A stretch of DNA of 64,000 nucleotides from Phytophthora sp. 'mugwort' (lineage: Eukaryota; Oomycota; Peronosporomycetes; Peronosporales; Peronosporaceae): positions 3,162,001-3,226,000 of the forward strand of contig JAUCEF010000016.1 in NCBI GenBank assembly GCA_033558025.1. The letters are read 5' to 3'. How positions within the stretch are numbered: the stretch's first letter is position 1; the number at the start of each line of letters is the position of its first letter. Positions 2,875 to 56,516 of the stretch are shown here, piece after piece. Both the position numbers and the translations under genes were made by a program. The notes beneath the pieces were generated by a model, which searched no databases, was not told the origin of the DNA, and saw only the letters and a list, made by a program, of their open reading frames with translations.

Positions 2875-2878
2875 GGTT

Positions 2879-19668: not shown

Positions 19669-22600
19669 TTAGTGGCCGTCCACTATTGCCAGCAGCATGT
19701 CGCGGTACTCGCCGCTCGTGTCGCCGCGGATGCGTTTGCTCAGTTCCTTTCCGTAGAGTTTCGTGTACGCCGTCTTAATCTGAGGCAACATGACGTGGTA
19801 GCGTACTACCGCTGCGCTGAGCCCGTACTCATCCGTTCCTAGGCCCTTCATCGTGCTCTCCACGAGGTCCGCCAAGAGCTCAAACGGCTCGAAGACCATA
19901 CGGACATGATACAGAAGCGCAGCCTGGGCGTCGCCCTTGAATTCGCCCTTAATCGCCTTGATGATGCTCGTCTTCTTGTACTTCTTCGAGTAGGCAGTGT
20001 CAATGTTGCGCAGGTGCTCGGGTGGACTCGAGACGACGATACGAATGAAAGTTTCTTCGTCAGTTCCCCATTTCCCTTCTCCAGCCTTGTAAAGCACATC
20101 AGCATCGGTACCAGCCTTAGCACTCGTGTACACAGCCGAGTCGAAACTGGGCAAATCTCCCTTCATCGCGGCCATAACGACCTTCTTCAAATCACCGCTC
20201 AGTTCACGACGTAGAACGCTCACGAGGTCATCACCGTAGAGATCACGGTACGTCTTCTCTAACATGGCGATTTCAGCGTTCGAGCGAGCCATGACGACCG
20301 GGTAGATCCATTCCTCTGTTGTACCCACACCCTTTGTAGCCTTCCGTAGGATCTCGGCCTCGACGTATTCCACAGGGCTCGCGAGCATCTTCAGTAGAAT
20401 GCCATAGTCGCTTGTGCTCTTCACCCGCACTGTTAAACTCTGTTTGTATAGGATGTGGTAGCGCCACCAGATGAGGTAGCGCTGCTCAGCTGTCTTGGAC
20501 ACAAGGATGGACGCCAAAGTCTTTTCATCCGTCGCACCACCCGTGCACTTTGCGTGAATCTCTTGGACAGCAGCTTCAATGTCACCATAAAGAGCGAGGG
20601 TGGCACCTCCGGCCACATCGTGCGAGCTCTGTGCGTACAGGTTACCAAACGCGACAGAACGCACAATAGTCGTCGACATTGTCGACACCGTGGAGGTCGC
20701 CTCGTTACCGGCACTTGATAATGTAGTACTCACAGCAGTACTCTGCGAAATGCTCGCCTTCTCCTCCACCGACGCGCCCGAACCGATGCCAGCAACGCTC
20801 ACAGTAGCGCTCGAGCTGCTCACCGTCCCACTTGCCGACGTAGATCCTGAAGTAGACGCGCCGAATTCCACCTCCGCTGCGTCAAACACAGACAGAAGTA
20901 GCTGGCAGTACTCGCCGCTCACCACGCCCTGGATACGTGTGCGCAGCTCCTGCCGGTACAGACGCATGTACACGACGCGAATGCGCACAAGAAGGCGGTA
21001 GTACCGCACAACCCACGCACTCAGACCATACGCGTTCTTGCCAGCGCTCTTCAGCGTCGTCTCGAACAGCTCCGCAAGCAGCTCCACCGGCTCCAGCACC
21101 GAGTGCACCAGGAACAGCAGCGCATGCTTGGCGTCGCCAAAGAACTCCGTCTTGATCACATCCGCGAGGTCTTTCTTGTACTTCGTCACGTACGCACTGT
21201 TGATGTTGCGCACGTGCTCCGCCGGGTTCAGCACCAGGATGTTGATAAACGTCGTCTCGTCCGTCCCCATGCGGCCTTCGCCGGCCTTGTACAAGGCGTC
21301 CGCGTCCGCTGCAGCCTTCGCGCTCGTGTGGACAGACGCGTTGAAATCGGCCACCTCGCCGCGCATAGCGGTCAGGATCACCTTCTTCAAGTCGCCGCTC
21401 AACTCGCCGCTCAAGATCCCCACCAGGTCGTCGCCGTATTTCTCCTGGAACGTCTTCTTCAGCAGCGCAATCTCAGCGTTCGAGCGAGCCATCACGACCG
21501 GGTAGATCCATTCCTCCGTCGAGCCCAGGCCCTTCGTAGCCTTGCGCAGAATTTCGGCCTCCACGTGCTCCAGTGGGCTCGCGAGCATCTTCAGCAGAAT
21601 GCCGTACTCACTCGTGCTCTTCACCCACACCGTCAAGCTCTGCTTGTACAGGATGCGGTAGCGCCACCAAATCAGGTAGCGCTGCTCTGCAGTCTTCGAC
21701 AGCAGCAGCGACGCCAGCGCAGCCTCATCCGAAGCCGCACCAGTGCACACGCGCTGGATCTTCTGCGCAGCCGCATCGATATCGGCAGAGAACGTCATTG
21801 ACTCGATGCTGCTGCCCTCGCGTGCGTAGCGCGCGTATAGGCTGCTCATCTCCGCGGCGCCCGTAGCCACCAGCGAGGCAGAGCTCTCCTTGCCGCTCAG
21901 GGCGGACGTCGTCGACACCAAACCACCAGCAGCAGACACACTCTCCGTACTACTCACGCCCACAGCAGTACTCTGCGAAATGCTCGCCTTCTCCTCCACC
22001 GACGCGCCCGAACCGATGCCAGCAACGCTCACAGTAGCGCTCGAGCTGCTCACCGTCCCACTTGCCGACGTAGATCCTGAAGTAGACGCGCCGAATTCCA
22101 CCTCCGCTGCGTCGAACACAGACAGAAGTAGCTGGCAGTACTCGCCGCTCACCACGCCCTGGATACGTGTGCGCAGCTCCTGCCGGTACAGACGCATGTA
22201 CACGACGCGAATGCGCACAAGAAGGCGGTAGTACCGCACAACCCACGCACTCAGACCATACGCGTTCTTGCCAGCGCTCTTCAGCGTCGTCTCGAACAGC
22301 TCCGCAAGCAGCTCCACCGGCTCCAGCACCGAGCGCACCAGGAACAGCAGCGCATGCTTGGCGTCGCCAGAGAACTCCGTCTTGATCACATCCGCGAGGT
22401 CTTTCTTGTACTTCGTCACGTACGCACTGTTGATGTTGCGCACGTGCTCCGCCGGGTTCAGCACCAGGATGTTGATAAACGTCGTCTCGTCCGTCCCCAT
22501 GCGGCCTTCGCCGGCCTTGTACAAGGCGTCCGCGTCCGCTGCAGCCTTCGCGCTCGTGTGGACAGACGCGTTGAAATCGGCCACCTCGCCGCGCATAGCG

Positions 22601-25600
22601 GTCAGGATCACCTTCTTCAAGTCGCCGCTCAACTCGCCGCTCAAGATCCCCACCAGGTCGTCGCCGTATTTCTCCTGGAACGTCTTCTTCAGCAGCGCAA
22701 TCTCAGCGTTCGAGCGAGCCATCACGACCGGGTAGATCCATTCCTCCGTCGAGCCCAGGCCCTTCGTAGCCTTGCGCAGAATTTCGGCCTCCACGTGCTC
22801 CAGTGGGCTCGCGAGCATCTTCAGCAGAATGCCGTACTCACTCGTGCTCTTCACCCACACCGTCAAGCTCTGCTTGTACAGGATGCGGTAGCGCCACCAA
22901 ATCAGGTAGCGCTGCTCTGCAGTCTTCGACAGCAGCAGCGACGCCAGCGCAGCCTCATCCGAAGCCGCACCAGTGCACACGCGCTGGATCTTCTGCGCAG
23001 CCGCATCGATATCGGCAGAGAACGTCATTGACTCGATGCTGCTGCCCTCGCGTGCGTAGCGCGCGTATAGGCTGCTCATCTCCGCGGCGCCCGTAGCCAC
23101 CAGCGAGGCAGAGCTCTCCTTGCCGCTCAGGGCGGACGTCGTCGACACCAAACCACCAGCAGCAGACACACTCTCCGTACTACTCACGCCCACAGCAGTA
23201 CTCTGCGAAATGCTCGCCTTCTCCTCCACCGACGCGCCCGAACCGATGCCAGCAACGCTCACAGTAGCGCTCGAGCTGCTCACCGTCCCACTTGCCGACG
23301 TAGATCCTGAAGTAGACGCGCCGAATTCCACCTCCGCTGCGTCGAACACAGACAGAAGTAGCTGGCAGTACTCGCCGCTCACCACGCCCTGGATACGTGT
23401 GCGCAGCTCCTGCCGGTACAGACGCATGTACACGACGCGAATGCGCACAAGAAGGCGGTAGTACCGCACAACCCACGCACTCAGACCATACGCGTTCTTG
23501 CCAGCGCTCTTCAGCGTCGTCTCGAACAGCTCCGCAAGCAGCTCCACCGGCTCCAGCACCGAGCGCACCAGGAACAGCAGCGCATGCTTGGCGTCGCCAG
23601 AGAACTCCGTCTTGATCACATCCGCGAGGTCTTTCTTGTACTTCGTCACGTACGCACTGTTGATGTTGCGCACGTGCTCCGCCGGGTTCAGCACCAGGAT
23701 GTTGATAAACGTCGTCTCGTCCGTCCCCATGCGGCCTTCGCCGGCCTTGTACAAGGCGTCCGCGTCCGCTGCAGCCTTCGCGCTCGTGTGGACAGACGCG
23801 TTGAAATCGGCCACCTCGCCGCGCATAGCGGTCAGGATCACCTTCTTCAAGTCGCCGCTCAACTCGCCGCTCAAGATCCCCACCAGGTCGTCGCCGTATT
23901 TCTCCTGGAACGTCTTCTTCAGCAGCGCAATCTCAGCGTTCGAGCGAGCCATCACGACCGGGTAGATCCATTCCTCCGTCGTGCCCAGGCCCTTCGTAGC
24001 CTTGCGCAGAATTTCGGCCTCCACGTGCTCCAGTGGGCTCGCGAGCATCTTCAGCAGAATGCCGTACTCACTCGTGCTCTTCACCCACACCGTCAAGCTC
24101 TGCTTGTACAGGATGCGGTAGCGCCACCAAATCAGGTAGCGCTGCTCTGCAGTCTTCGACAGCAGCAGCGACGCCAGCGCAGCCTCATCCGAAGCCGCAC
24201 CAGTGCACACGCGCTGGATCTTCTGCGCAGCCGCATCGATATCGGCAGAGAACGTCATTGACTCGATGCTGCTGCCCTCGCGTGCGTAGCGCGCGTATAG
24301 GCTGCTCATCTCCGCGGCGCCCGTAGCCACCAGCGAGGCAGAGCTCTCCTTGCCGCTCAGGGCGGACGTCGTCGACACCAAACCACCAGCAGCAGACACA
24401 CTCTCCGTACTACTCACGCCCACAGCAGTACTCTGCGAAATGCTCGCCTTCTCCTCCACCGACGCGCCCGAACCGATGCCAGCAACGCTCACAGTAGCGC
24501 TCGAGCTGCTCACCGTCCCACTTGCCGACGTAGATCCTGAAGTAGACGCGCCGAATTCCACCTCCGCTGCGTCAAACACAGACAGAAGTAGCTGGCAGTA
24601 CTCGCCGCTCACCACGCCCTGGATACGTGTGCGCAGCTCCTGCCGGTACAGACGCATGTACACGACGCGAATGCGCACAAGAAGGCGGTAGTACCGCACA
24701 ACCCACGCACTCAGACCATACGCGTTCTTGCCAGCGCTCTTCAGCGTCGTCTCGAACAGCTCCGCAAGCAGCTCCACCGGCTCCAGCACCGAGCGCACCA
24801 GGAACAGCAGCGCATGCTTGGCGTCGCCAGAGAACTCCGTCTTGATCACATCCGCGAGGTCTTTCTTGTACTTCGCCACGTACGCACTGTTGATGTTGCG
24901 CACGTGCTCCGCCGGGTTCAGCACCAGGATGTTGATAAACGTCGTCTCGTCCGTCCCCATGCGGCCTTCGCCGGCCTTGTACAAGGCGTCCGCGTCCGCT
25001 GCAGCCTTCGCGCTCGTGTGGACAGACGCGTTGAAATCGGCCACCTCGCCGCGCATAGCGGTCAGGATCACCTTCTTCAAGTCGCCGCTCAACTCGCCGC
25101 TCAAGATCCCCACCAGGTCGTCGCCGTATTTCTCCTGGAACGTCTTCTTCAGCAGCGCAATCTCAGCGTTCGAGCGAGCCATCACGACCGGGTAGATCCA
25201 TTCCTCCGTCGTGCCCAGGCCCTTCGTAGCCTTGCGCAGAATTTCGGCCTCCACGTGCTCCAGTGGGCTCGCGAGCATCTTCAGCAGAATGCCGTACTCA
25301 CTCGTGCTCTTCACCCACACCGTCAAGCTCTGCTTGTACAGGATGCGGTAGCGCCACCAAATCAGGTAGCGCTGCTCTGCAGTCTTCGACAGCAGCAGCG
25401 ACGCCAGCGCAGCCTCATCCGAAGCCGCACCAGTGCACACGCGCTGGATCTTCTGCGCAGCCGCATCGATATCGGCAGAGAACGTCATTGACTCGATGCT
25501 GCTGCCCTCGCGTGCGTAGCGCGCGTATAGGCTGCTCATCTCCGCGGCGCCCATAGCCACCAGCGAGGCAGAGCTCTCCTTGCCGCTCAGGGCGGACGTC

Positions 25601-28600
25601 GTCGACACCGAACCACCACCAGCAGACACGCTTTCCGTACTACTCGCACTTACAAAAGTGCTTATTGTCGTGGGTTGTTGGCCTTCGTCGTGATTGTTAT
25701 CAGAAATGGATGTCTTGGCTAACTTGGATACGTTTGTTCCCGTAACGAAAACTGTATCATCGGGGAAGGTCACAAATGAGGAGAGACTTCGGATGCTGCG
25801 GTTCTCCTTCTCTTCGTTTGCACCATCAATAACAGCGACGTGATACTGAGTATTGCCGCTAGCACCAAGGCTAAGCAAGAACTCAATGTCATCGATGTCT
25901 TGTGGCTGCGCAAACCCAAGCTCTTGGAAGAATGTAATGAGAGACTTCGCTGACCCATAGAATACCGCTTCGCCGCCTTCCGTAATCAGCACATTTTCAT
26001 AGCCACCAGATAACTGCGGTGATTCCTTCAGCATTGAGGTCAGCACTTGTGCACTTGCGGCATCAGACACTTTCTTGTGCTCGCTAGACACTTCATCGAT
26101 CACCAAGATACGCTTATGCTGTCCAAACTCGATGCCAAATTCATGAACAGCAACCTCGGGGAATTGTACCGACAACGTTTGCGACACATTCCAAGCTGCG
26201 CGCTTCTCATCCAACGAGCCACTCTTGTACAAATTATCGCTAAAGCTTGACAGACTCTTCGCCCAGAAGTCGCGCGAAAGCTCACGGACCTGCTCCGAGC
26301 AAAGCGTCGCAACGTCTTTACCTCTCTTCTCGCAGAAACTCACAAACTGCGCTAGCCATGTCCACCCGAACGAAGTCTCCTTCACCTTCTGCAACTTTGA
26401 GTCTTCACTACTCCCGCCACTGAGACATAGAACAACAAGAGTGTTTTCACAATCCCGTTTAAAATGACCCAATCGTCCAGGGGTAACACACCCATCAGCC
26501 TCGGTTCGCACATCCCCACTCAACATCGGTTCCATCATCGCTGTCGAGCCGACATCGGCGGACGTGGTCGTGGAGCGGGTGGCACTCACAGCAGAGCCGA
26601 TAACAGCGCCTGTGGTAGCGGCCGTCGCGACATCGATGGCGGCCGTCTTCAGGCCGCTCACCTTTTTGCTGTCGTCAGAGACATCCTCCGACGTCACGGT
26701 CGTCTCCGACGTCTCCGTCGTCACGGCACTCACGCTGCCAGTCGTGTCCGCGCCAGTCACATCCGTGCTCGACACCGTCGTCACACCCTCCTCGTTCTCG
26801 GTGGTCTCCGTCGTCTCGGTGGTCTCCGTCGTCTGCTGGCTCGCGCCCGTGCCACTCGTCCAGCCAGACGTCACGGCGTAGCCGCCGCGCTCACCCACGC
26901 TGCGGGTCACGTCACCGCTCACGTCTTCACTGGTCACGGCGCTCACACCTTCATTTGTCACCGTCTCCGTCGTCTCGGTCACTTCAGTCGTCTCGGTCGA
27001 GCTGACATCGGCGGACGTGGTCGTGGAGCGGGTGGCACTCACAGCAGAGCCGATAACAGCGCCTGTGGTAGCGGCCGTCGCGACATCGATGGCGGCCGTC
27101 TTCAGGCCGCTCACCTTTTTGCTGTCGTCAGAGACATCCTCCGACGTCACGGTCGTCTCCGACGTCTCCGTCGTCACGGCACTCACGCTGCCAGTCGTGT
27201 CCTCGCCAGTCACATCCGTGCTCGACACCGTCGTCACACTCTCCTCGTTCTCGGTGGTCTCCGTCGTCTGCTGGCTTGCGCCCGTGCCACTCGTCCAGCC
27301 AGACGTCACGGCGTAGCCGCCGCGCTCACCCACGCTGCGGGTCACGTCGCCGCTCACGTCTTCACTGGTCACGGCGCTCACACCTTCATTTGTCACCGTC
27401 TCCGTCGTCTCGGTCACTTCAGTCGTCTCGGTCGAGCTGACATCGGCGGACGTGGTCGTGGAGCGGGTGGCACTCACAGCAGAGCCGATAACAGCGCCTG
27501 TGGTAGCGGCCGTCGCGACATCGATGGCGGCCGTCTTCAGGCCGCTCGCCTTTTTGCTGTCGTCAGAGACATCCTCCGACGTCACGGTCGTCTCCGACGT
27601 CTCCGTCGTCACGGCACTCACGCTGCCAGTCGTGTCCGCGCCAGTCACATCCGTGCTCGACACCGTCGTCACACCCTCCTCGTTCTCGGTGGTCTCCGTC
27701 GTCTCGGTGGTCTCCGTCGTCTGCTGGCTCGCGCCCGTGCCACTCGTCCAGCCAGACGTCACGGCGTAGCCGCCGCGCTCACCCACGCTGCGGGTCACGT
27801 CGCCGCTCACGTCTTCACTGGTCACGGCGCTCACACCTTCATTTGTCACCGTCTCCGTCGTCTCGGTCACTTCAGTCGTCTCGGTCGAGCTGACATCGGC
27901 GGACGTGGTCGTGGAGCGGGTGGCACTCACAGCAGAGCCGATAACAGCGCCTGTGGTAGCGGCCGTCGCGACATCGATGGCGGCCGTCTTCAGGCCGCTC
28001 ACCTTTTTGCTGTCGTCAGAGACATCCTCCGACGTCACGGTCGTCTCCGACGTCTCCGTCGTCACGGCACTCACGCTGCCAGTCGTGTCCGCGCCAGTCA
28101 CATCCGTGCTCGACACCGTCGTCACACTCTCCTCGTTCTCGGTGGTCTCCGTCGTCTGCTGGCTTGCGCCCGTGCCACTCGTCCAGCCAGACGTCACGGC
28201 GTAGCCGCCGCGCTCACCCACGCTGCGGGTCACGTCGCCGCTCGCGTCTTCACTGGTCACGGCGCTCACACCTTCATTTGTCACCGTCTCCGTCGTCTCG
28301 GTCACTTCAGTCGTCTCGGTCGAGCTGACATCGGCGGACGTGGTCGTGGAGCGGGTGGCACTCACAGCAGAGCCGATAACAGCGCCTGTGGTAGCGGCCG
28401 TCGCGACATCGATGGCGGCCGTCTTCAGGCCGCTCACCTTTTTGCTGTCGTCAGAGACATCCTCCGACGTCACGGTCGTCTCCGACGTCTCCGTCGTCAC
28501 GGCACTCACGCTGCCAGTCGTGTCCGCGCCAGTCACATCCGTGCTCGACACCGTCGTCACACCCTCCTCGTTCTCGGTGGTCTCCGTCGTCTCGGTGGTC

Positions 28601-37600: not shown

Positions 37601-40600
37601 CCAGGAGCGGCGCCGGCCTCCACGGTCGAGCGGATGGCGCGAGCGCCCGACACGCCCGTCGTGCTGCCGGACGTCGTCGCGAGGCCACTCTCCTCGGTCT
37701 CCGTCTCCTCACGCGTCTCCGTCTCCACCGTCGTGCTCTTTTCGCCCGACGTTGTCTCCGTCTCCGTCGTGGTCTCCACCTCGATCGTCCTCACCACCTC
37801 GCCGCTGGTAGACGTCGAAGTGCGTGTTGTCGTCTTCACCGTCTTCGTCACGATGCTGCCGTCCGCCTCTTGAGACTGGAACACTTCCGTCTGCACCGAC
37901 TCACCAGGAGCGGCGCCGGCCTCCACGGTCGAGCGGATGGCGCGAGCGCCCGACACGCCCGTCGTGCTGCCGGACGTCGTCGCGAGGCCACTCTCCTCGG
38001 TCTCCGTCTCCTCACGCGTCTCCGTCTCCACCGTCGTGCTCTTTTCGCCCGACGTTGTCTCCGTCTCCGTCGTGGTCTCCACCTCGATCGTCCTCACCAC
38101 CTCGCCGCTGGTAGACGTCGAAGTGCGTGTTGTCGTCTTCACGGTCTTCGTCACGATGCTGCCGTCCGCCTCCTGAGACTGGAACACCTCCGTCTGCACC
38201 GACTCACCAGGAGCGGCGCCGGCCTCCACGGTCGAGCGGATGGCGCGAGCGCCCGACACGCCCGTCGTGCTGCCGGACGTCGTCGCGAGGCCACTCTCCT
38301 CGGTCTCCGTCTCCTCACGCGTCTCCGTCTCCACCGTCGTGCTCTTTTCGCCCGACGTTGTCTCCGTCTCCGTCGTGGTCTCCACCTCGATCGTCCTCAC
38401 CACCTCGCCGCTGGTAGACGTCGAAGTGCGTGTTGTCGTCTTCACGGTCTTCGTCACGATGCTGCCGTCCGCCTCCTGAGACTGGAACACCTCCGTCTGC
38501 ACCGACTCGCCAGGAGCGGCGCCGGCCTCCACGATCGAGCGGATGGCGCGAGCGCCCGACACGCCCGTCGTGCTGCCGGACGTCGTCGCGAGGCCACTCT
38601 CCTCGGTCTCCGTCTCCTCACGCGTCTCCGTCTCCACCGTCGTGCTCTTTTCGCCCGACGTTGTCTCCGTCTCCGTCGTGGTCTCCACCTCGATCGTCCT
38701 CACCACCTCGCCGCTGGTAGACGTCGAAGTGCGTGTTGTCGTCTTCACGGTCTTCGTCACGATGCTGCCGTCCGCCTCCTGAGACTGGAACACCTCCGTC
38801 TGCACCGACTCACCAGGAGCGGCGCCGGCCTCCACGGTCGAGCGGATGGCGCGAGCGCCCGACACGCCCGTCGTGCTGCCGGACGTCGTCGCGAGGCCAC
38901 TCTCCTCGGTCTCCGTCTCCTCACGCGTCTCCGTCTCCACCGTCGTGCTCTTTTCGCCCGACGTTGTTTCCGTCTCCGTCGTGGTCTCCACCTCGATCGT
39001 CCTCACCACCTCGCCGCTGGTAGACGTCGAAGTGCGTGTTGTCGTCTTCACGGTCTTCGTCACGATGCTGCCGTCCGCCTCCTGAGACTGGAACACCTCC
39101 GTCTGCACCGACGCACCAGGAGCGGCGCCGGCCTCCACGATCGAGCGGATGGCGCGAGCGCCCGACACGCCCGTCGTGCTGCCGGACGTCGTCGCGAGGC
39201 CACTCTCCTCGGTCTCCGTCTCCTCACGCGTCTCCGTCTCCACCGTCGTGCTCTTTTCGCCCGACGTTGTCTCCGTCTCCGTCGTGGTCTCCACCTCGAT
39301 CGTCCTCACCACCTCGCCGCTGGTAGACGTCGAAGTGCGTGTTGTCGTCTTCACGGTCTTCGTCACGATGCTGCCGTCCGCCTCTTGAGACTGGAACACT
39401 TCCGTCTGCACCGACTCACCAGGAGCGGCGCCGGCCTCCACGGTCGAGCGGATGGCGCGAGCGCCCGACACGCCCGTCGTGCTGCCGGACGTCGTCGCGA
39501 GGCCACTCTCCTCGGTCTCCGTCTCCTCACGCGTCTCCGTCTCCACCGTCGTGCTCTTTTCGCCCGACGTTGTCTCCGTCTCCGTCGTGGTCTCCACCTC
39601 GATCGTCCTCACCACCTCGCCGCTGGTAGACGTCGAAGTGCGTGTTGTCGTCTTCACGGTCTTCGTCACGATGCTGCCGTCCGCCTCCTGAGACTGGAAC
39701 ACCTCCGTCTGCACCGACTCACCAGGAGCGGCGCCGGCCTCCACGGTCGAGCGGATGGCGCGAGCGCCCGACACGCCCGTCGTGCTGCCGGACGTCGTCG
39801 CGAGGCCACTCTCCTCGGTCTCCGTCTCCTCACGCGTCTCCGTCTCCACCGTCGTGCTCTTTTCGCCCGACGTTGTCTCCGTCTCCGTCGTGGTCTCCAC
39901 CTCGATCGTCCTCACCACCTCGCCGCTGGTAGACGTCGAAGTGCGTGTTGTCGTCTTCACCGTCTTCGTCACGATGCTGCCGTCCGCCTCTTGAGACTGG
40001 AACACTTCCGTCTGCACCGACTCACCAGGAGCGGCGCCGGCCTCCACGGTCGAGCGGATGGCGCGAGCGCCCGACACGCCCGTCGTGCTGCCGGACGTCG
40101 TCGCGAGGCCACTCTCCTCGGTCTCCGTCTCCTCACGCGTCTCCGTCTCCACCGTCGTGCTCTTTTCGCCCGACGTTGTCTCCGTCTCCGTCGTGGTCTC
40201 CACCTCGATCGTCCTCACCACCTCGCCGCTGGTAGACGTCGAAGTGCGTGTTGTCGTCTTCACGGTCTTCGTCACGATGCTGCCGTCCGCCTCCTGAGAC
40301 TGGAACACCTCCGTCTGCACCGACTCACCAGGAGCGGCGCCGGCCTCCACGGTCGAGCGGATGGCGCGAGCGCCCGACACGCCCGTCGTGCTGCCGGACG
40401 TCGTCGCGAGGCCACTCTCCTCGGTCTCCGCCTCCTCACGCGTCTCCGTCTCCACCGTCGTGCTCTTTTCGCCCGACGTTGTCTCCGTCTCCGTCGTGGT
40501 CTCCACCTCGATCGTCCTCACCACCTCGCCGCTGGTAGACGTCGAAGTGCGTGTTGTCGTCTTCACGGTCTTCGTCACGATGCTGCCGTCCGCCTCCTGA

Positions 40601-43600
40601 GACTGGAACACCTCCGTCTGCACCGACTCACCAGGAGCGGCGCCGGCCTCCACGATCGAGCGGATGGCGCGAGCGCCCGACACGCCCGTCGTGCTGCCGG
40701 ACGTCGTCGCGAGGCCACTCTCCTCGGTCTCCGTCTCCTCACGCGTCTCCGTCTCCACCGTCGTGCTCTTTTCGCCCGACGTTGTCTCCGTCTCCGTCGT
40801 GGTCTCCACCTCGATCGTCCTCACCACCTCGCCGCTGGTAGACGTCGAAGTGCGTGTTGTCGTCTTCACGGTCTTCGTCACGATGCTGCCGTCCGCCTCC
40901 TGAGACTGGAACACCTCCGTCTGCACCGACTCACCAGGAGCGGCGCCGGCCTCCACGGTCGAGCGGATGGCGCGAGCGCCCGACACGCCCGTCGTGCTGC
41001 CGGACGTCGTCGCGAGGCCACTCTCCTCGGTCTCCGTCTCCTCACGCGTCTCCGTCTCCACCGTCGTGCTCTTTTCGCCCGACGTTGTCTCCGTCTCCGT
41101 CGTGGTCTCCACCTCGATCGTCCTCACCACCTCGCCGCTGGTAGACGTCGAAGTGCGTGTTGTCGTCTTCACGGTCTTCGTCACGATGCTGCCGTCCGCC
41201 TCCTGAGACTGGAACACCTCCGTCTGCACCGACTCACCAGGAGCGGCGCCGGCCTCCACGGTCGAGCGGATGGCGCGAGCGCCCGACACGCCCGTCGTGC
41301 TGCCGGACGTCGTCGCGAGGCCACTCTCCTCGGTCTCCGTCTCCTCACGCGTCTCCGTCTCCACCGTCGTGCTCTTTTCGCCCGACGTTGTCTCCGTCTC
41401 CGTCGTGGTCTCCACCTCGATCGTCCTCACCACCTCGCCGCTGGTAGACGTCGAAGTGCGTGTTGTCGTCTTCACGGTCTTCGTCACGATGCTGCCGTCC
41501 GCCTCCTGAGACTGGAACACTTCCGTCTGCACCGACTCACCAGGAGCGGCGCCGGCCTCCACGGTCGAGCGGATGGCGCGAGCGCCCGACACGCCCGTCG
41601 TGCTGCCGGACGTCGTCGCGAGGCCACTCTCCTCGGTCTCCGTCTCCTCACGCGTCTCCGTCTCCACCGTCGTGCTCTTTTCGCCCGACGTTGTCTCCGT
41701 CTCCGTCGTGGTCTCCACCTCGATCGTCCTCACCACCTCGCCGCTGGTAGACGTCGAAGTGCGTGTTGTCGTCTTCACGGTCTTCGTCACGATGCTGCCG
41801 TCCGCCTCCTGAGACTGGAACACTTCCGTCTGCACCGACTCACCAGGAGCGGCGCCGGCCTCCACGGTCGAGCGGATGGCGCGAGCGCCCGACACGCCCG
41901 TCGTGCTGCCGGACGTCGTCGCGAGGCCACTCTCCTCGGTCTCCGTCTCCTCACGCGTCTCCGTCTCCACCGTCGTGCTCTTTTCGCCCGACGTTGTCTC
42001 CGTCTCCGTCGTGGTCTCCACCTCGATCGTCCTCACCACCTCGCCGCTGGTAGACGTCGAAGTGCGTGTTGTCGTCTTCACCGTCTTCGTCACGATGCTG
42101 CCGTCCGCCTCCTGAGACTGGAACACTTCCGTCTGCACCGACTCACCAGGAGCGGCGCCGGCCTCCACGGTCGAGCGGATGGCGCGAGCGCCCGACACGC
42201 CCGTCGTGCTGCCGGACGTCGTCGCGAGGCCACTCTCCTCGGTCTCCGTCTCCTCACGCGTCTCCGTCTCCACCGTCGTGCTCTTTTCGCCCGACGTTGT
42301 CTCCGTCTCCGTCGTGGTCTCCACCTCGATCGTCCTCACCACCTCGCCGCTGGTAGACGTCGAAGTGCGTGTTGTCGTCTTCACGGTCTTCGTCACGATG
42401 CTGCCGTCCGCCTCCTGAGACTGGAACACCTCCGTCTGCACCGACTCACCAGGAGCGGCGCCGGCCTCCACGGTCGAGCGGATGGCGCGAGCGCCCGACA
42501 CGCCCGTCGTGCTGCCGGACGTCGTCGCGAGGCCACTCTCCTCGGTCTCCGTCTCCTCACGCGTCTCCGTCTCCACCGTCGTGCTCTTTTCGCCCGACGT
42601 TGTCTCCGTCTCCGTCGTGGTCTCCACCTCGATCGTCCTCACCACCTCGCCGCTGGTAGACGTCGAAGTGCGTGTTGTCGTCTTCACGGTCTTCGTCACG
42701 ATGCTGCCGTCCGCCTCCTGAGACTGGAACACCTCCGTCTGCACCGACTCACCAGGAGCGGCGCCGGCCTCCACGGTCGAGCGGATGGCGCGAGCGCCCG
42801 ACACGCCCGTCGTGCTGCCGGACGTCGTCGCGAGGCCACTCTCCTCGGTCTCCGTCTCCTCACGCGTCTCCGTCTCCACCGTCGTGCTCTTTTCGCCCGA
42901 CGTTGTCTCCGTCTCCGTCGTGGTCTCCACCTCGATCGTCCTCACCACCTCGCCGCTGGTAGACGTCGAAGTGCGTGTTGTCGTCTTCACGGTCTTCGTC
43001 ACGATGCTGCCGTCCGCCTCCTGAGACTGGAACACCTCCGTCTGCACCGACTCACCAGGAGCGGCGCCGGCCTCCACGGTCGAGCGGATGGCGCGAGCGC
43101 CCGACACGCCCGTCGTGCTGCCGGACGTCGTCGCGAGGCCACTCTCCTCGGTCTCCGTCTCCTCACGCGTCTCCGTCTCCACCGTCGTGCTCTTTTCGCC
43201 CGACGTTGTCTCCGTCTCCGTCGTGGTCTCCACCTCGATCGTCCTCACCACCTCGCCGCTGGTAGACGTCGAAGTGCGTGTTGTCGTCTTCACGGTCTTC
43301 GTCACGATGCTGCCGTCCGCCTCCTGAGACTGGAACACCTCCGTCTGCACCGACTCACCAGGAGCGGCGCCGGCCTCCACGGTCGAGCGGATGGCGCGAG
43401 CGCCCGACACGCCCGTCGTGCTGCCGGACGTCGTCGCGAGGCCACTCTCCTCGGTCTCCGTCTCCTCACGCGTCTCCGTCTCCACCGTCGTGCTCTTTTC
43501 GCCCGACGTTGTCTCCGTCTCCGTCGTGGTCTCCACCTCGATCGTCCTCACCACCTCGCCGCTGGTAGACGTCGAAGTGCGTGTTGTCGTCTTCACGGTC

Positions 43601-44532
43601 TTCGTCACGATGCTGCCGTCCGCCTCCTGAGACTGGAACACCTCCGTCTGCACCGACTCACCAGGAGCGGCGCCGGCCTCCACGGTCGAGCGGATGGCGC
43701 GAGCGCCCGACACGCCCGTCGTGCTGCCGGACGTCGTCGCGAGGCCACTCTCCTCGGTCTCCGTCTCCTCACGCGTCTCCGTCTCCACCGTCGTGCTCTT
43801 TTCGCCCGACGTTGTCTCCGTCTCCGTCGTGGTCTCCACCTCGATCGTCCTCACCACCTCGCCGCTGGTAGACGTCGAAGTGCGTGTTGTCGTCTTCACG
43901 GTCTTCGTCACGATGCTGCCGTCCGCCTCCTGAGACTGGAACACCTCCGTCTGCACCGACTCACCAGGAGCGGCGCCGGCCTCCACGATTGGGCGGATGG
44001 CACCAGTCGTAGCCAACTGGGTAGCACTCTGGTTTTTGTTCAGGTTGTGGCCTTGGTGGAGTCTTTTGCCGTCCATTTCTGTTGTTGTTTCCCTCTTAAC
44101 TGACGTTGTTTTTTCTCCGTTCGTAGCTTCCGTTTCCGTAGTCGTCTCTACTTCGATTGTTGTGACGAGCTCACCGGTAGCCGACACTTTCGTGCGTCGC
44201 GTCGTCTTGACCGTCTTAACGACGACGCACCCGTCGGGCTCCACCGTGCGGAAAACCTCCGTTTTAGTGTCTTCCTTGTCGGCGGTCGCCTTGTTGGGGT
44301 CGTTCGGCTCGGTCTCGGGCTCGTGGGGAGCCTTGACGCCCTTGCTGCCGCTCTTCTGCTCGCTTACGGCCTCGAAATCCGTGACGGGCATCTTTTTGTC
44401 CGTGGTCGCGGCCGCCGTGTACGTGGTCACGCCGCCCTCTACTCTCTTCACCTGCGCTTTCTTGGCCGTCCTCTTGCCGGCCGCCGCCGCTTTCTGCTTG
44501 GGATCCTTTTCGACCGACTCGGCTCCGCCCAT
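19669..44532 (-). CDS. Giant repeat protein with five annexin cores (8,287 residues)
   Basis: One uninterrupted reading frame of 24.9 kb, no introns. Residues 1-6 (MGGAES) fit the N-myristoylation pattern G-x3-S. About 85-181 is a diverged copy of repeat A; 182-2492 is array A (23 units of 101 residues, core EADGSIVTKTVKTTTR); 2493-5996 is array B (Thr-rich units of 145/151/157 residues). 5997-6295 is a unique segment resembling part of a PDR/ABCG ATPase. 6296-7935 holds four near-identical 410-residue modules, each a complete four-repeat annexin core plus a Ser-rich spacer, and 7936-8287 a fifth, diverged core. Annexin-type calcium motifs are visible (KGLGTTEE, GRMGTDE, KGLGTDE). Annexins bind acidic membranes with calcium; in oomycetes they are reported from cell-wall and membrane fractions. 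Neither signal peptide nor membrane segment is seen. Function is unknown: a membrane-anchored, multivalent scaffold is my inference. Copy numbers depend on correct assembly. Confidence 0.85.
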   Translation of the reverse strand: MGGAESVEKDPKQKAAAAGKRTAKKAQVKRVEGGVTTYTAAATTDKKMPVTDFEAVSEQKSGSKGVKAPHEPETEPNDPNKATADKEDTKTEVFRTVEPDGCVVVKTVKTTRRTKVSATGELVTTIEVETTTETEATNGEKTTSVKRETTTEMDGKRLHQGHNLNKNQSATQLATTGAIRPIVEAGAAPGESVQTEVFQSQEADGSIVTKTVKTTTRTSTSTSGEVVRTIEVETTTETETTSGEKSTTVETETREETETEESGLATTSGSTTGVSGARAIRSTVEAGAAPGESVQTEVFQSQEADGSIVTKTVKTTTRTSTSTSGEVVRTIEVETTTETETTSGEKSTTVETETREETETEESGLATTSGSTTGVSGARAIRSTVEAGAAPGESVQTEVFQSQEADGSIVTKTVKTTTRTSTSTSGEVVRTIEVETTTETETTSGEKSTTVETETREETETEESGLATTSGSTTGVSGARAIRSTVEAGAAPGESVQTEVFQSQEADGSIVTKTVKTTTRTSTSTSGEVVRTIEVETTTETETTSGEKSTTVETETREETETEESGLATTSGSTTGVSGARAIRSTVEAGAAPGESVQTEVFQSQEADGSIVTKTVKTTTRTSTSTSGEVVRTIEVETTTETETTSGEKSTTVETETREETETEESGLATTSGSTTGVSGARAIRSTVEAGAAPGESVQTEVFQSQEADGSIVTKTVKTTTRTSTSTSGEVVRTIEVETTTETETTSGEKSTTVETETREETETEESGLATTSGSTTGVSGARAIRSTVEAGAAPGESVQTEVFQSQEADGSIVTKTVKTTTRTSTSTSGEVVRTIEVETTTETETTSGEKSTTVETETREETETEESGLATTSGSTTGVSGARAIRSTVEAGAAPGESVQTEVFQSQEADGSIVTKTVKTTTRTSTSTSGEVVRTIEVETTTETETTSGEKSTTVETETREETETEESGLATTSGSTTGVSGARAIRSTVEAGAAPGESVQTEVFQSQEADGSIVTKTVKTTTRTSTSTSGEVVRTIEVETTTETETTSGEKSTTVETETREETETEESGLATTSGSTTGVSGARAIRSTVEAGAAPGESVQTEVFQSQEADGSIVTKTVKTTTRTSTSTSGEVVRTIEVETTTETETTSGEKSTTVETETREETETEESGLATTSGSTTGVSGARAIRSTVEAGAAPGESVQTEVFQSQEADGSIVTKTVKTTTRTSTSTSGEVVRTIEVETTTETETTSGEKSTTVETETREETETEESGLATTSGSTTGVSGARAIRSIVEAGAAPGESVQTEVFQSQEADGSIVTKTVKTTTRTSTSTSGEVVRTIEVETTTETETTSGEKSTTVETETREEAETEESGLATTSGSTTGVSGARAIRSTVEAGAAPGESVQTEVFQSQEADGSIVTKTVKTTTRTSTSTSGEVVRTIEVETTTETETTSGEKSTTVETETREETETEESGLATTSGSTTGVSGARAIRSTVEAGAAPGESVQTEVFQSQEADGSIVTKTVKTTTRTSTSTSGEVVRTIEVETTTETETTSGEKSTTVETETREETETEESGLATTSGSTTGVSGARAIRSTVEAGAAPGESVQTEVFQSQEADGSIVTKTVKTTTRTSTSTSGEVVRTIEVETTTETETTSGEKSTTVETETREETETEESGLATTSGSTTGVSGARAIRSTVEAGAAPGESVQTEVFQSQEADGSIVTKTVKTTTRTSTSTSGEVVRTIEVETTTETETTSGEKSTTVETETREETETEESGLATTSGSTTGVSGARAIRSIVEAGAAPGASVQTEVFQSQEADGSIVTKTVKTTTRTSTSTSGEVVRTIEVETTTETETTSGEKSTTVETETREETETEESGLATTSGSTTGVSGARAIRSTVEAGAAPGESVQTEVFQSQEADGSIVTKTVKTTTRTSTSTSGEVVRTIEVETTTETETTSGEKSTTVETETREETETEESGLATTSGSTTGVSGARAIRSIVEAGAAPGESVQTEVFQSQEADGSIVTKTVKTTTRTSTSTSGEVVRTIEVETTTETETTSGEKSTTVETETREETETEESGLATTSGSTTGVSGARAIRSTVEAGAAPGESVQTEVFQSQEADGSIVTKTVKTTTRTSTSTSGEVVRTIEVETTTETETTSGEKSTTVETETREETETEESGLATTSGSTTGVSGARAIRSTVEAGAAPGESVQTEVFQSQEADGSIVTKTVKTTTRTSTSTSGEVVRTIEVETTTETETTSGEKSTTVETETREETETEESGLATTSGSTTGVSGARAIRSTVEAGAAPGESVQTEVFQSQEADGSIVTKAVKTTTRTSTSTSGEVVRTIEVETTTETETTSGEKSTTVETETREETETEESGLATTSGSTTGVSGARAIRSTVEAGAAPGESVQTEVFQSQEADGSIVTKTVKTTTRTSTSTSGEVVRTIEVETTTETETTSGEKSTTVETETGEETETEEGDVIKRAEIETTGAVIGSAVNATRSTTTSADVSSTETTEVTETTETVTNEGVSAVTSEDVSGDVTRSVGERGGYAVTSGWTSGTGASQQTTETTETTETTEATETTENEEGVTTVSSTDVTGADTTGSVSAVTTETSETTVTSEDVSDDSKKVSGLKTAAIDVATAATTGAVIGSAVSATRSTTTSADVSSTETTEVTETTETVTNEGVSAVTSEDVSGDVTRSVGERGGYAVTSGWTSGTGASQQTTETTETTETTEATETTENEEGVTTVSSTDVTGADTTGSVSAVTTETSETTVTSEDVSDDSKKVSGLKTAAIDVATAATTGAVIGSAVSATRSTTTSADVSSTETTEVTETTETVTNEGVSAVTSEDVSGDVTRSVGERGGYAVTSGWTSGTGASQQTTETTETTETTENEEGVTTVSSTDVTGADTTGSVSAVTTETSETTVTSEDVSDDSKKVSGLKTAAIDVATAATTGAVIGSAVSATRSTTTSADVSSTETTEVTETTETVTNEGVSAVTSGDVSGDVTRSVGERGGYAVTSGWTSGTGASQQTTETTENEEGVTTVSSTDVTGADTTGSVSAVTTETSETTVTSEDVSDDSKKVSGLKTAAIDVATAATTGAVIGSAVSATRSTTTSADVSSTETTEVTETTETVTNEGVSAVTSEDVSGDVTRSVGERGGYAVTSGWTSGTGASQQTTETTETTETTENEEGVTTVSSTDVTGADTTGSVSAVTTETSETTVTSEDVSDDSKKVSGLKTAAIDVATAATTGAVIGSAVSATRSTTTSADVSSTETTEVTETTETVTNEGVSAVTSEDVSGDVTRSVGERGGYAVTSGWTSGTGASQQTTETTETTETTETTETTENEEGVTTVSSTDVTGADTTGSVSAVTTETSETTVTSEDVSDDSKKVSGLKTAAIDVATAATTGAVIGSAVSATRSTTTSADVSSTETTEVTETTETVTNEGVSAVTSEDVSGDVTRSVGERGGYAVTSGWTSGTGASQQTTETTETTETTENEEGVTTVSSTDVTGADTTGSVSAVTTETSETTVTSEDVSDDSKKVSGLKTAAIDVATAATTGAVIGSAVSATRSTTTSADVSSTETTEVTETTETVTNEGVSAVTSEDVSGDVTRSVGERGGYAVTSGWTSGTGASQQTTETTETTETTENEEGVTTVSSTDVTGADTTGSVSAVTTETSETTVTSEDVSDDSKKVSGLKTAAIDVATAATTGAVIGSAVSATRSTTTSADVSSTETTEVTETTETVTNEGVSAVTSEDVSGDVTRSVGERGGYAVTSGWTSGTGASQQTTETTETTETTEATETTENEEGVTTVSSTDVTGADTTGSVSAVTTETSETTVTSEDVSDDSKKVSGLKTAAIDVATAATTGAVIGSAVSATRSTTTSADVSSTETTEVTETTETVTNEGVSAVTSEDVSGDVTRSVGERGGYAVTSGWTSGTGASQQTTETTETTETTENEEGVTTVSSTDVTGADTTGSVSAVTTETSETTVTSEDVSDDSKKVSGLKTAAIDVATAATTGAVIGSAVSATRSTTTSADVSSTETTEVTETTETVTNEGVSAVTSEDVSGDVTRSVGERGGYAVTSGWTSGTGASQQTTETTETTETTENEEGVTTVSSTDVTGADTTGSVSAVTTETSETTVTSEDVSDDSKKVSGLKTAAIDVATAATTGAVIGSAVSATRSTTTSADVSSTETTEVTETTETVTNEGVSAVTSEDVSGDVTRSVGERGGYAVTSGWTSGTGASQQTTETTETTETTETTETTENEEGVTTVSSTDVTGADTTGSVSAVTTETSETTVTSEDVSDDSKKVSGLKTAAIDVATAATTGAVIGSAVSATRSTTTSADVSSTETTEVTETTETVTNEGVSAVTSEDVSGDVTRSVGERGGYAVTSGWTSGTGASQQTTETTETTETTENEEGVTTVSSTDVTGADTTGSVSAVTTETSETTVTSEDVSDDSKKASGLKTAAIDVATAATTGAVIGSAVSATRSTTTSADVSSTETTEVTETTETVTNEGVSAVTSGDVSGDVTRSVGERGGYAVTSGWTSGTGASQQTTETTENEEGVTTVSSTDVTGADTTGSVSAVTTETSETTVTSEDVSDDSKKVSGLKTAAIDVATAATTGAVIGSAVSATRSTTTSADVSSTETTEVTETTETVTNEGVSAVTSEDVSGDVTRSVGERGGYAVTSGWTSGTGASQQTTETTETTETTENEEGVTTVSSTDVTGADTTGSVSAVTTETSETTVTSEDVSDDSKKVSGLKTAAIDVATAATTGAVIGSAVSATRSTTTSADVSSTETTEVTETTETVTNEGVSAVTSEDVSGDVTRSVGERGGYAVTSGWTSGTGASQQTTETTETTETTENEEGVTTVSSTDVTGADTTGSVSAVTTETSETTVTSEDVSDDSKKVSGLKTAAIDVATAATTGAVIGSAVSATRSTTTSADVSSTETTEVTETTEAVTNEGVSAVTSEDVSGDVTRSVGERGGYAVTSGWTSGTGASQQTTETTENEEGVTTVSSTDVTGADTTGSVSAVTTETSETTVTSEDVSDDSKKVSGLKTAAIDVATAATTGAVIGSAVSATRSTTTSADVSSTETTEVTETTETVTNEGVSAVTSEDVSGDVTRSVGERGGYAVTSGWTSGTGASQQTTETTETTETTENEEGVTTVSSTDVTGADTTGSVSAVTTETSETAVTSEDVSDDSKKVSGLKTAAIDVATAATTGAVIGSAVSATRSTTTSADVSSTETTEVTETTETVTNEGVSAVTSEDVSGDVTRSVGERGGYAVTSGWTSGTGASQQTTETTETTETTETTETTENEEGVTTVSSTDVTGADTTGSVSAVTTETSETTVTSEDVSDDSKKVSGLKTAAIDVATAATTGAVIGSAVSATRSTTTSADVSSTETTEVTETTETVTNEGVSAVTSEDASGDVTRSVGERGGYAVTSGWTSGTGASQQTTETTENEESVTTVSSTDVTGADTTGSVSAVTTETSETTVTSEDVSDDSKKVSGLKTAAIDVATAATTGAVIGSAVSATRSTTTSADVSSTETTEVTETTETVTNEGVSAVTSEDVSGDVTRSVGERGGYAVTSGWTSGTGASQQTTETTETTETTENEEGVTTVSSTDVTGADTTGSVSAVTTETSETTVTSEDVSDDSKKASGLKTAAIDVATAATTGAVIGSAVSATRSTTTSADVSSTETTEVTETTETVTNEGVSAVTSEDVSGDVTRSVGERGGYAVTSGWTSGTGASQQTTETTENEESVTTVSSTDVTGEDTTGSVSAVTTETSETTVTSEDVSDDSKKVSGLKTAAIDVATAATTGAVIGSAVSATRSTTTSADVSSTETTEVTETTETVTNEGVSAVTSEDVSGDVTRSVGERGGYAVTSGWTSGTGASQQTTETTETTETTENEEGVTTVSSTDVTGADTTGSVSAVTTETSETTVTSEDVSDDSKKVSGLKTAAIDVATAATTGAVIGSAVSATRSTTTSADVGSTAMMEPMLSGDVRTEADGCVTPGRLGHFKRDCENTLVVLCLSGGSSEDSKLQKVKETSFGWTWLAQFVSFCEKRGKDVATLCSEQVRELSRDFWAKSLSSFSDNLYKSGSLDEKRAAWNVSQTLSVQFPEVAVHEFGIEFGQHKRILVIDEVSSEHKKVSDAASAQVLTSMLKESPQLSGGYENVLITEGGEAVFYGSAKSLITFFQELGFAQPQDIDDIEFLLSLGASGNTQYHVAVIDGANEEKENRSIRSLSSFVTFPDDTVFVTGTNVSKLAKTSISDNNHDEGQQPTTISTFVSASSTESVSAGGGSVSTTSALSGKESSASLVAMGAAEMSSLYARYAREGSSIESMTFSADIDAAAQKIQRVCTGAASDEAALASLLLSKTAEQRYLIWWRYRILYKQSLTVWVKSTSEYGILLKMLASPLEHVEAEILRKATKGLGTTEEWIYPVVMARSNAEIALLKKTFQEKYGDDLVGILSGELSGDLKKVILTAMRGEVADFNASVHTSAKAAADADALYKAGEGRMGTDETTFINILVLNPAEHVRNINSAYVAKYKKDLADVIKTEFSGDAKHALLFLVRSVLEPVELLAELFETTLKSAGKNAYGLSAWVVRYYRLLVRIRVVYMRLYRQELRTRIQGVVSGEYCQLLLSVFDAAEVEFGASTSGSTSASGTVSSSSATVSVAGIGSGASVEEKASISQSTAVGVSSTESVSAAGGLVSTTSALSGKESSASLVATGAAEMSSLYARYAREGSSIESMTFSADIDAAAQKIQRVCTGAASDEAALASLLLSKTAEQRYLIWWRYRILYKQSLTVWVKSTSEYGILLKMLASPLEHVEAEILRKATKGLGTTEEWIYPVVMARSNAEIALLKKTFQEKYGDDLVGILSGELSGDLKKVILTAMRGEVADFNASVHTSAKAAADADALYKAGEGRMGTDETTFINILVLNPAEHVRNINSAYVTKYKKDLADVIKTEFSGDAKHALLFLVRSVLEPVELLAELFETTLKSAGKNAYGLSAWVVRYYRLLVRIRVVYMRLYRQELRTRIQGVVSGEYCQLLLSVFDAAEVEFGASTSGSTSASGTVSSSSATVSVAGIGSGASVEEKASISQSTAVGVSSTESVSAAGGLVSTTSALSGKESSASLVATGAAEMSSLYARYAREGSSIESMTFSADIDAAAQKIQRVCTGAASDEAALASLLLSKTAEQRYLIWWRYRILYKQSLTVWVKSTSEYGILLKMLASPLEHVEAEILRKATKGLGSTEEWIYPVVMARSNAEIALLKKTFQEKYGDDLVGILSGELSGDLKKVILTAMRGEVADFNASVHTSAKAAADADALYKAGEGRMGTDETTFINILVLNPAEHVRNINSAYVTKYKKDLADVIKTEFSGDAKHALLFLVRSVLEPVELLAELFETTLKSAGKNAYGLSAWVVRYYRLLVRIRVVYMRLYRQELRTRIQGVVSGEYCQLLLSVFDAAEVEFGASTSGSTSASGTVSSSSATVSVAGIGSGASVEEKASISQSTAVGVSSTESVSAAGGLVSTTSALSGKESSASLVATGAAEMSSLYARYAREGSSIESMTFSADIDAAAQKIQRVCTGAASDEAALASLLLSKTAEQRYLIWWRYRILYKQSLTVWVKSTSEYGILLKMLASPLEHVEAEILRKATKGLGSTEEWIYPVVMARSNAEIALLKKTFQEKYGDDLVGILSGELSGDLKKVILTAMRGEVADFNASVHTSAKAAADADALYKAGEGRMGTDETTFINILVLNPAEHVRNINSAYVTKYKKDLADVIKTEFFGDAKHALLFLVHSVLEPVELLAELFETTLKSAGKNAYGLSAWVVRYYRLLVRIRVVYMRLYRQELRTRIQGVVSGEYCQLLLSVFDAAEVEFGASTSGSTSASGTVSSSSATVSVAGIGSGASVEEKASISQSTAVSTTLSSAGNEATSTVSTMSTTIVRSVAFGNLYAQSSHDVAGGATLALYGDIEAAVQEIHAKCTGGATDEKTLASILVSKTAEQRYLIWWRYHILYKQSLTVRVKSTSDYGILLKMLASPVEYVEAEILRKATKGVGTTEEWIYPVVMARSNAEIAMLEKTYRDLYGDDLVSVLRRELSGDLKKVVMAAMKGDLPSFDSAVYTSAKAGTDADVLYKAGEGKWGTDEETFIRIVVSSPPEHLRNIDTAYSKKYKKTSIIKAIKGEFKGDAQAALLYHVRMVFEPFELLADLVESTMKGLGTDEYGLSAAVVRYHVMLPQIKTAYTKLYGKELSKRIRGDTSGEYRDMLLAIVDGH
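20727..25646 (-). repeat. Four tandem 1,230-bp annexin modules
   Basis: Four consecutive copies of 410 codons, offset exactly 1,230 bp, nearly identical in DNA. Differences are few: GLGTTEE versus GLGSTEE, Ala versus Thr before KYKKDL, and in the most C-terminal copy EFFGD and HSVLEP where the others have EFSGD and RSVLEP. Each copy contains four annexin repeats followed by a Ser/Thr-rich spacer (STSGSTSASGTVSSSS). Confidence 0.95.
25647..26544 (-). other. PDR/ABCG-ATPase-like segment inside the giant protein
   Basis: Residues about 5997-6295 are the only long unique part between the arrays and the annexin modules. RILVIDEVSS looks like a Walker B strand (hhhhDE). The following ENVLITEGGEAVFYGSAKSL and ITFFQELGF...DIDDIEFLLSLG follow the order seen after Walker B in pleiotropic drug resistance transporters (a loop of the type LNEGxVxYHGP, then YFESLGF, then DVADFLLDLG). 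Walker A and the ABC signature are not found, so it cannot be a working ATPase. This is family resemblance by eye. Confidence 0.45.
26545..37055 (-). repeat. Tandem array B: 23 full units of 435, 453 or 471 bp plus a partial
   Basis: The unit start (coding TTGAVIGSAVSATRS) recurs at 37001, 36530, 36059, 35606 and so on to 26564. Spacing takes only three values, 435, 453 and 471 bp, which differ by 18 bp. The difference lies in a hexapeptide micro-repeat TTETTE present once, twice or three times just before TENEEGV. The remainder of the unit is almost invariant. The final partial unit runs into the unique segment. Confidence 0.95.
37056..43989 (-). repeat. Tandem array A: 23 units of 303 bp
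   Basis: The junction between units recurs at exactly 303-bp spacing from 37331 to 43694. Units are nearly identical; scattered single changes occur (Ile for Thr at the unit border, Ala for Thr, Ala for Glu). The unit encodes a Thr/Glu-rich stretch rich in TTTETET and ETET. The last unit before array B is cut short. Linked base variants (for example TTGAGACTGGAACACTTCC versus the CTGAG...CACCTCC form) mark sub-families of units. These group at 37.2-37.9 kb and recur near 39.4 and 40.0 kb, as expected from unequal exchange. Confidence 0.95.
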
Positions 44533-56318: not shown

Positions 56319-56516
56319 TCACGTGCCTTGAATTTGTAAGTCGGGCTTTCGCCTTTCTCGCTTCTCGAGGACAAGGAGCTGTCTGAGCCCTGTTTTCCAA
56401 AACGTTTGTATGGCTGCCTCTAGTAATCTTTTCTTGCTGGAAAATGACTTTGTTTCGCTGGATCCATAGCCCCCGTTACGCATACGCTGGCCAGTATTCG
56501 CCATATTCTTTTCCAT
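56319..56516 (-). pseudogene. LINE C-terminal remnant
   Basis: The minus strand encodes TFWKTGLRQLLVLEKRERRKP, which matches AFWTAGMRQLQAIEKREGRQP at the 3' end of the LINE remnant at 8.5-8.8 kb, including the preceding SKK and following GTR-like positions. Only about 65 codons remain. It is part of the same or a sister LINE family. Confidence 0.5.

Follow-up and report, generated by a model that had tools for sequence, protein, structure and literature searches.

What kind of protein does a single reading frame of 24,864 bases encode, and to what use might a cell put it? The question is raised by a 64,000-nucleotide stretch of the Phytophthora sp. 'mugwort' genome (the window; on contig C16, 4.36 Mb, of an assembly of 86.3 Mb in 154 contigs), in which positions 19669..44532 of the minus strand form one frame of 8,287 codons with a calculated mass of 852 kDa and a pI of 4.3. 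We found that this frame joins a short N-terminal segment, two long threonine-rich tandem arrays, a segment related to ABC transporters and five annexin cores, and we refer to its product as the giant annexin. This anatomy is near certain. As to function, we infer, with a probability of roughly 0.42, a membrane-anchored, very long, cytosolic tether that would be operated by calcium.

No internal stop interrupted the frame, and an in-frame stop sits two codons before the first ATG, so that the whole open frame counted from that stop has 8,289 codons. The term intronless describes here the open frame as known from the genomic sequence alone, and array unit counts depend on the assembly. An earlier note, made from the letters of this stretch, had described one 8,287-codon frame with two arrays, a separate segment, five cores and twenty repeats, and frame, period, anchor and Pfam analysis confirmed that description. 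The openness of the arrays is weak evidence for coding, because an antisense frame of 5,879 codons (26464-44103, plus strand), which coincides with the arrays, is likewise open; the opposite strand carries one open frame for each of the two arrays. We treated the antisense frame as a by-product of the arrays, without a search for its relatives. Stronger evidence for coding is provided by cross-species conservation, by the synonymous excess in array 1 and by dN/dS (the ratio of non-synonymous to synonymous divergence) between cores 1 and 5. A chance open frame was considered as well, and was ruled out by the cross-species protein conservation and dN/dS.

The five annexin cores occupy the C-terminal part of the protein, all on the minus strand: core 1 (residues 6334-6663; 24544..25533), core 2 (residues 6744-7073; 23314..24303), core 3 (residues 7154-7483; 22084..23073), core 4 (residues 7564-7893; 20854..21843) and the terminal core 5 (residues 7964-8287; 19672..20643), which belongs to a lineage separate from that of cores 1-4. 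Pfam profile PF00191 was run on cores 1 and 5 alone and matched four stretches in each (5.7e-44 and 9.1e-56, respectively), while cores 2-4 were judged by their 98% identity to core 1; hence we count 20 annexin repeats. A six-frame search of the genome with the same profile listed at least 12 of the 20 repeats in the giant frame (12 of 35 matches), so some repeats are degenerate. Type II calcium sites, defined by a G-x-G-T loop and an acidic residue about 38 positions further, were kept in 11 of the 20 repeats and lost in nine. The sites of repeats 2 and 3 were kept in every core (repeat 2 reads GLGS in cores 3 and 4), that of repeat 4 in core 5 only, and that of repeat 1 in none, both loop and acidic cap being lost in all five cores. 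The cores compared from P. ramorum and P. fragariae, two from each, showed the same pattern. The best PDB match of core 5 was annexin A6 (1avc, 1m9i). By the sequence features tested, the giant belongs to the annexin superfamily and has five cores, as had been proposed. Calcium-dependent, multivalent membrane binding by the cores, also proposed beforehand, may reasonably be inferred from the 11 of 20 sites kept.

We then asked where else this architecture occurs. Three protein searches covered different length ranges: about 4,560-14,500 residues (search 1, query residues 5996-8287; 587 candidates sharing most words), 1,261-4,011 residues (search 2; 7,981 candidates scored) and 329-1,046 residues (search 3; 7,994 scored). 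As the searches were bounded in length and passed through a word filter, and as some models are fragmentary, a lack of relatives elsewhere is not proof of absence. Search 1 returned one protein, P. ramorum PRIC1_010452 (4,577 residues, 75% identity, 100% coverage), whose model begins within array 2 and contains array 2, the ABC-like segment and six cores. Search 2 returned 11 proteins, all from Phytophthora (P. fragariae, P. cactorum, P. idaei, P. aleatoria, P. kernoviae and P. nicotianae), among them five kinase-annexin models and one other model fused to the trehalose synthase neighbour. Search 3 found 195 proteins, the best 120 of which were listed. Modules were mapped on 48 (P0001-P0048) of 132 returned proteins. 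Array unit(s), ABC-like segment and core(s) were joined in P0001-P0006, P0023 (P. infestans) and P0025, together eight species, and also in P0042 and P0044. The N-terminal module was present in P0004 (P. idaei), P0006 and P0044 (P. kernoviae), P0025 (P. boehmeriae) and P0033 (Peronosclerospora sorghi), and in P. idaei, P. kernoviae and P. boehmeriae it was joined to array, ABC-like segment and core(s). Internal-type cores were also found in the downy mildews Hyaloperonospora, Peronospora and Plasmopara; Saprolegniales and Pythium-type matches among those listed were of classical length. A single giant-type core with kinase domains and/or an array-1 remnant was seen in P0007-P0010, P0012, P0026-P0028 and P0030 (P. 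cactorum, P. idaei, P. nicotianae and P. aleatoria), models that may be real fusions or merged gene models. Judged by these sequences, the giant annexin is conserved in other Phytophthora species. The earlier note's suspicion of an oomycete origin is borne out by relatives in Phytophthora and other oomycetes, and annexin domains next to such arrays, for which it had suggested looking in other oomycetes, were indeed found, in eight Phytophthora species. As several public gene models of the giant annexin are partial, it is easily overlooked.

The two arrays together make up about 5,800 residues. Array 1 begins with a diverged unit (about residues 93-191; 43960..44256, minus strand), followed by 23 units of 101 residues, the last one short (residues 192 to about 2490; 37063..43959, minus strand; Thr 27%, Glu 17%). 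Its DNA period is 303 bp over 37085-44001; protein anchors placed all 22 spacings of the 23 units at 101 residues, and the diverged first unit brings the total to 24. Array 2 (about residues 2491-5995; 26548..37062, minus strand), delimited by DNA period and protein anchors, has a period of 453 bp over 27240-37053 and 23 anchors spaced 145, 151 or 157 residues apart. These unit lengths change solely in steps of six codons, and the reading frame is preserved throughout. All 22 aligned array-2 units contain a Gly/Ala-rich, mildly hydrophobic stretch, AAIDVATAATTGAVIGSAV. On the charge-hydropathy plot, the one unit of each array tested fell narrowly on the disordered side, and the same units gave no beta-strand-like lag-2 hydropathy signal. 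A sequence search of the PDB with array pieces found no match at E<=1, and their Pfam and NCBIfam matches were all under the cut-offs and chance-like. We estimate that the spacer measures up to about 2 micrometres when fully extended and about 40 nm as an ideal coil.

It could be argued that the arrays are passive, that is, coding minisatellites resized by unequal exchange with little effect, the working protein being the N-terminus plus the core(s). Copy numbers do differ among models, the units are homogenised in the window, and there are short models: that of Peronosclerospora sorghi consists of N-terminus and partial core, that of P. boehmeriae of a single core with few units. Short models may, however, be collapsed assemblies, and the array-1 sequence itself speaks against passivity. 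Over 68-residue pieces, the homogenised unit is 91-93% identical to two later units of P. idaei, 82-84% to units of P. kernoviae and P. boehmeriae, and 75-76% to the first array of a second giant gene (see below), which keeps long arrays too. In contrast, the first unit escapes homogenisation: its identity to the homogenised unit is just 59% in the window protein, and the first units of P. idaei and P. kernoviae reach 56-59%. Among the 22 array-1 units compared, 10 were distinct; their codon differences comprised 16 synonymous and 6 non-synonymous ones, variants found in several units being counted more than once. Hence we regard passive arrays as unlikely, though this is the alternative that survives best.

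On which side of the membrane would such a protein lie? Its N-terminal segment (residues 1-92; 44257..44532, minus strand) starts with MGGAES, an N-myristoylation-type start, and contains no signal peptide-like stretch: over the first ~100 residues, the mean hydropathy of 19-residue windows peaked at -0.06, no dedicated signal-peptide predictor having been run. The start fits the N-myristoylation pattern PROSITE PS00008 (Gly2, permitted residues 3-7). Of the 119 Met-starting rows among the 132 returned proteins, six fitted this pattern: P0121, an unnamed annexin match that starts with MGNRHS, and the five models in which the N-terminal module is present. MGGAES itself opens all five related models holding the module (P0004, P0006, P0025, P0033 and P0044; four species), and the second giant starts with MGGTES. 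A stretch V-x-DFE-[AS]-VSE is common to the window protein, P0004, P0006, P0025, P0044 and the second giant. Two N-myristoyltransferase-family matches were found in the same genome. The MGGAES start fits N-myristoylation and a cytosolic protein. For comparison, mammalian annexin A13 is N-myristoylated and by that route binds membranes without calcium, according to PMC3588008.

These findings bear on a second alternative, an extracellular or wall-associated adhesive or scaffold that would leave the cell by unconventional export and use the Thr-rich arrays as an extended, perhaps O-modified stalk. The arrays are certainly rich in Thr and Ser, and several papers make statements on oomycete annexins that would fit an outside location: PMC4656261 reports annexin homologues in the P. 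ramorum and P. infestans cell-wall proteomes and a Saprolegnia annexin that activates glucan synthase, a Phytophthora annexin is stated to take part in host adhesion (PMC11376283), and annexin is stated to be the means by which zoospores attach to roots (PMC11154991). The giant annexin is not identified in any of these statements. The conserved MGGAES start, found in five of five models with the N-terminal module, and the lack of a hydrophobic signal sequence argue against an O-glycosylated extracellular stalk, and a protein of 852 kDa would be a poor candidate for unconventional export; we consider this explanation improbable. Thus, of the spacer first envisaged in the earlier note, the great length and Thr/Glu-rich composition stand, the disorder holds narrowly for the one unit tested per array, and the O-modified extracellular stalk is not supported. 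Finally, an assembly or annotation artefact, with arrays and annexin part as separate genes or a frame not expressed as one protein, might be suspected from the P. ramorum model, which starts within array 2, and from several other partial models, but it is highly improbable, since a single predicted protein unites array, ABC-like segment and core(s) in eight other species, the N-terminal module is joined to them in three of these, and the frame survives the length changes of array 2.

Between array 2 and core 1 lies the ABC-like segment (residues 5996-6290, 295 residues; 25663..26547, minus strand), which the earlier note had called unique. Profile-profile comparison revises this: the segment is the decayed ATPase domain of a PDR-type ABCG transporter. 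A Pfam scan of the segment gave nothing above cut-off; a PDB sequence search reached ABCG25 at E 0.04, and NCBIfam gave TIGR00955 at 1.1e-5 and TIGR00956 at 4.5e-4, both far under the curated cut-offs. In the own genome, 42 matches lie outside the two giant frames (best 6e-9), many of them in frames of PDR size. When nine family segments, seven of which were kept by the program, were compared with eight own-genome PDR frames, the probability was 99.8 (E 2.1e-28, 186 columns, 26% identity), whereas the family segments against annexin cores, as a control, gave 0.1; the PDR frames had been chosen as hits of the segment itself, which favours the match. The aligned part (residues 6054-6239) starts 30-40 residues past the transporters' P-loop, so that no Walker A is present. 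The ABC signature is broken, as the VSG of the transporters' VSGGERKR is lost in a deletion and GERKR aligns to GQHKR; two LSGG strings occur at other alignment positions. In the Walker B region, VIDEV aligns with the transporters' LMDEI without the neighbouring motifs, and no 19-residue window of the segment has the mean hydropathy of >=1.6 sought as a sign of a transmembrane domain. Such a domain can hardly be an ordinary ATPase. With one copy here and two in the second giant, it appears to be maintained.

The history of the cores was examined with an annexin tree built from 43 selected rows. The 30 giant-type cores, among them the kinase-fused ones, all fell into one group (100/100) beside oomycete annexins, among which the deeper forks had moderate support only. 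Internal cores grouped by species where several were available (window 4/4, P. ramorum 5/5 identical, P. fragariae 2/2), and seven terminal cores grouped together with weak support (86/86). The neighbours of window cores 1-4 were P. fragariae and P. sojae. For the pair of cores 1 and 5, dN was 0.275 and dS 1.47, giving a dN/dS of 0.187, with weaker constraint in repeat 4 (0.44). Cores 1-4 differ pairwise by 1-4 changes; summed over the six pairs, these are 4 synonymous and 13 non-synonymous, which shows no synonymous excess, the numbers being inadequate for judgement.

Taken together, the calcium-operated cytosolic tether could work as follows. The N-terminus would be myristoylated and embedded in one membrane at its cytosolic face, the arrays would form a flexible, acidic spacer, and the ABC-like module would serve binding rather than act as an enzyme. 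Upon a rise in calcium, the cores with their 11 kept type II sites would attach to acidic phospholipid, either in the same membrane or in a second one, in the latter case holding both together. Unequal exchange within the arrays would alter spacer length and core number, while the ends, start and terminal core, would stay more constant. A physiological step such as the holding of cortical vesicles before calcium-triggered encystment is a guess.

Several observations weigh against this reading, in addition to the wall and adhesion reports cited above. The five models with MGGAES were those selected for holding the N-terminal module, and other Met-starting models (e.g. P0001, P0015 and P0023) begin inside later modules and are uninformative on the start. 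The disorder of the array units is only marginal, and the Gly/Ala-rich stretch of array 2 reaches a mean hydropathy of 1.42 and might fold or insert in a membrane. The Peronosclerospora sorghi protein P0033 (367 residues) consists of the N-terminus and a partial terminal core without arrays, so the long spacer would not be needed in every lineage, unless that model is incomplete. The dS between cores 1 and 5 is near saturation. In P. cactorum and P. kernoviae the terminal cores, and in P. boehmeriae the sole core, fall with internal cores. By eye, these misplaced cores look like internal-terminal chimaeras, from either real exchange or collapsed assembly.

The second giant lies about 0.34 Mb away on the same contig (C16:2814433-2849013, minus strand; 11,527 codons, or about 11,490 when counted from the Met of MGGTES); of its 34.6 kb, about 16.6 kb was read. 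It comprises an ABC-like domain, array-1-related units of 95 residues, a linker and a long array whose units of 89-92 residues carry KKPKSKKHRKPKRKP and whose matches span 2819374-2840073; to these are added a 103-residue array, another ABC-like domain and a tail rich in Ser and Thr. Its Thr-rich arrays are thus of three kinds, the central one being rich in Pro, Glu, Val and Lys. Genome-wide annexin searches gave no match in it among those listed. All 60 genome matches of the array-1 unit fell within the two giant frames. Relics of cores or array 2 were found at C11:1654383-1655642, C12:620019-620539, C17:4159080, C5:6467788 and C5:6472995, the frames in C11 and C12 being broken. It is conceivable, though on balance doubtful, that Peronosporaceae possess a small family of cytosolic giants (about 0.85 MDa and larger) made of recycled parts, namely an N-terminus anchored by a lipid, arrays that resemble springs, ABCG ATPase domains that are dead and, on one branch, an annexin string; these would be calcium-operated long-range tethers with constant ends, their spacer and valency tuned by concerted evolution.

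Titin-type PEVK springs are very long, repetitive, low-complexity spacers. The giants resemble them in this character, and in the Pro/Glu/Val/Lys array of the second giant; the comparison is one of character, not of sequence. Classical oomycete annexins, such as the own-genome C8 annexin, P. rubi P0041 and the glucan-synthase-activating annexin of Saprolegnia monoica, share with the giant the four-repeat core, 41-56% identity and the tree region, but have about 330 residues and one core, without arrays or ABC-like segment, and the C8 protein keeps all four calcium sites, which the giant's cores do not. The genome's own classical annexins are up to 87.5% (P. rubi P0041) and 94.8% (P. cactorum P0049) identical to returned proteins. 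At C7:10051179-10052261 there is also a classical annexin with a Gln/Pro/Tyr-rich C-terminal tail of about 360 residues (712-codon frame), and C16:4093092-4096131 holds two inverted classical annexin genes with equal Pfam scores. Vertebrate annexin A6, like the giant, has more than one core per chain, but only two, and neither arrays nor a lipid-anchor start. Annexin A13 likewise places an annexin behind an N-myristoylation signal, as PMC3588008 indicates, but has one core, a short N-terminus and no arrays, and its myristoylation is reported, that of the giant only predicted. PDR/ABCG transporters (own-genome frames mostly of about 1,350-1,500 codons) align with the ABC-like segment through their first ATPase domain; the segment differs in having no P-loop, a signature broken by deletion and no transmembrane part. 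The kinase-annexin models share a single internal-type core and, in those of P. cactorum, P. idaei and P. aleatoria, an array-1 remnant; unlike the giant, they carry kinase domains and no long arrays or ABC-like segment.

Vertebrate annexins have four repeats and annexin A6 eight, as stated in PMC3588008, and a 2025 review speaks of four to ten (PMC12249911). The open-licence literature searched yielded no description of such a protein or architecture. Strains of P. cactorum are reported to differ by in-frame indels in annexin genes (PMC10351607), and an annexin transcript is reported to rise in P. parasitica (PMC4111850), neither being tied to the giant annexin. With twenty repeats behind a 5,800-residue spacer and a lipid-anchor-type start at the other end, this conserved protein would exceed in size any annexin described in the literature searched, and would offer a natural system for studying the evolution of tether length and valency; its ABC-like segment suggests that a transporter ATPase domain was reused as a non-catalytic module.

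Next to the giant annexin, frames of a trehalose-6-phosphate synthase/phosphatase occupy 16571..19480 on the minus strand, and the same neighbour adjoins it in a P. cactorum gene model (P0011). The oomycete Inr/FPR promoter consensus had five matches in the window at <=3 mismatches, against 4.89 expected, and none at the giant's start. Elsewhere in the window, three ROK-family kinase genes stand in a row at 52324-57990, and polyprotein frames of a copia-type long terminal repeat retrotransposon, the first of which was scanned, lie at 2873-7005 on the plus strand.
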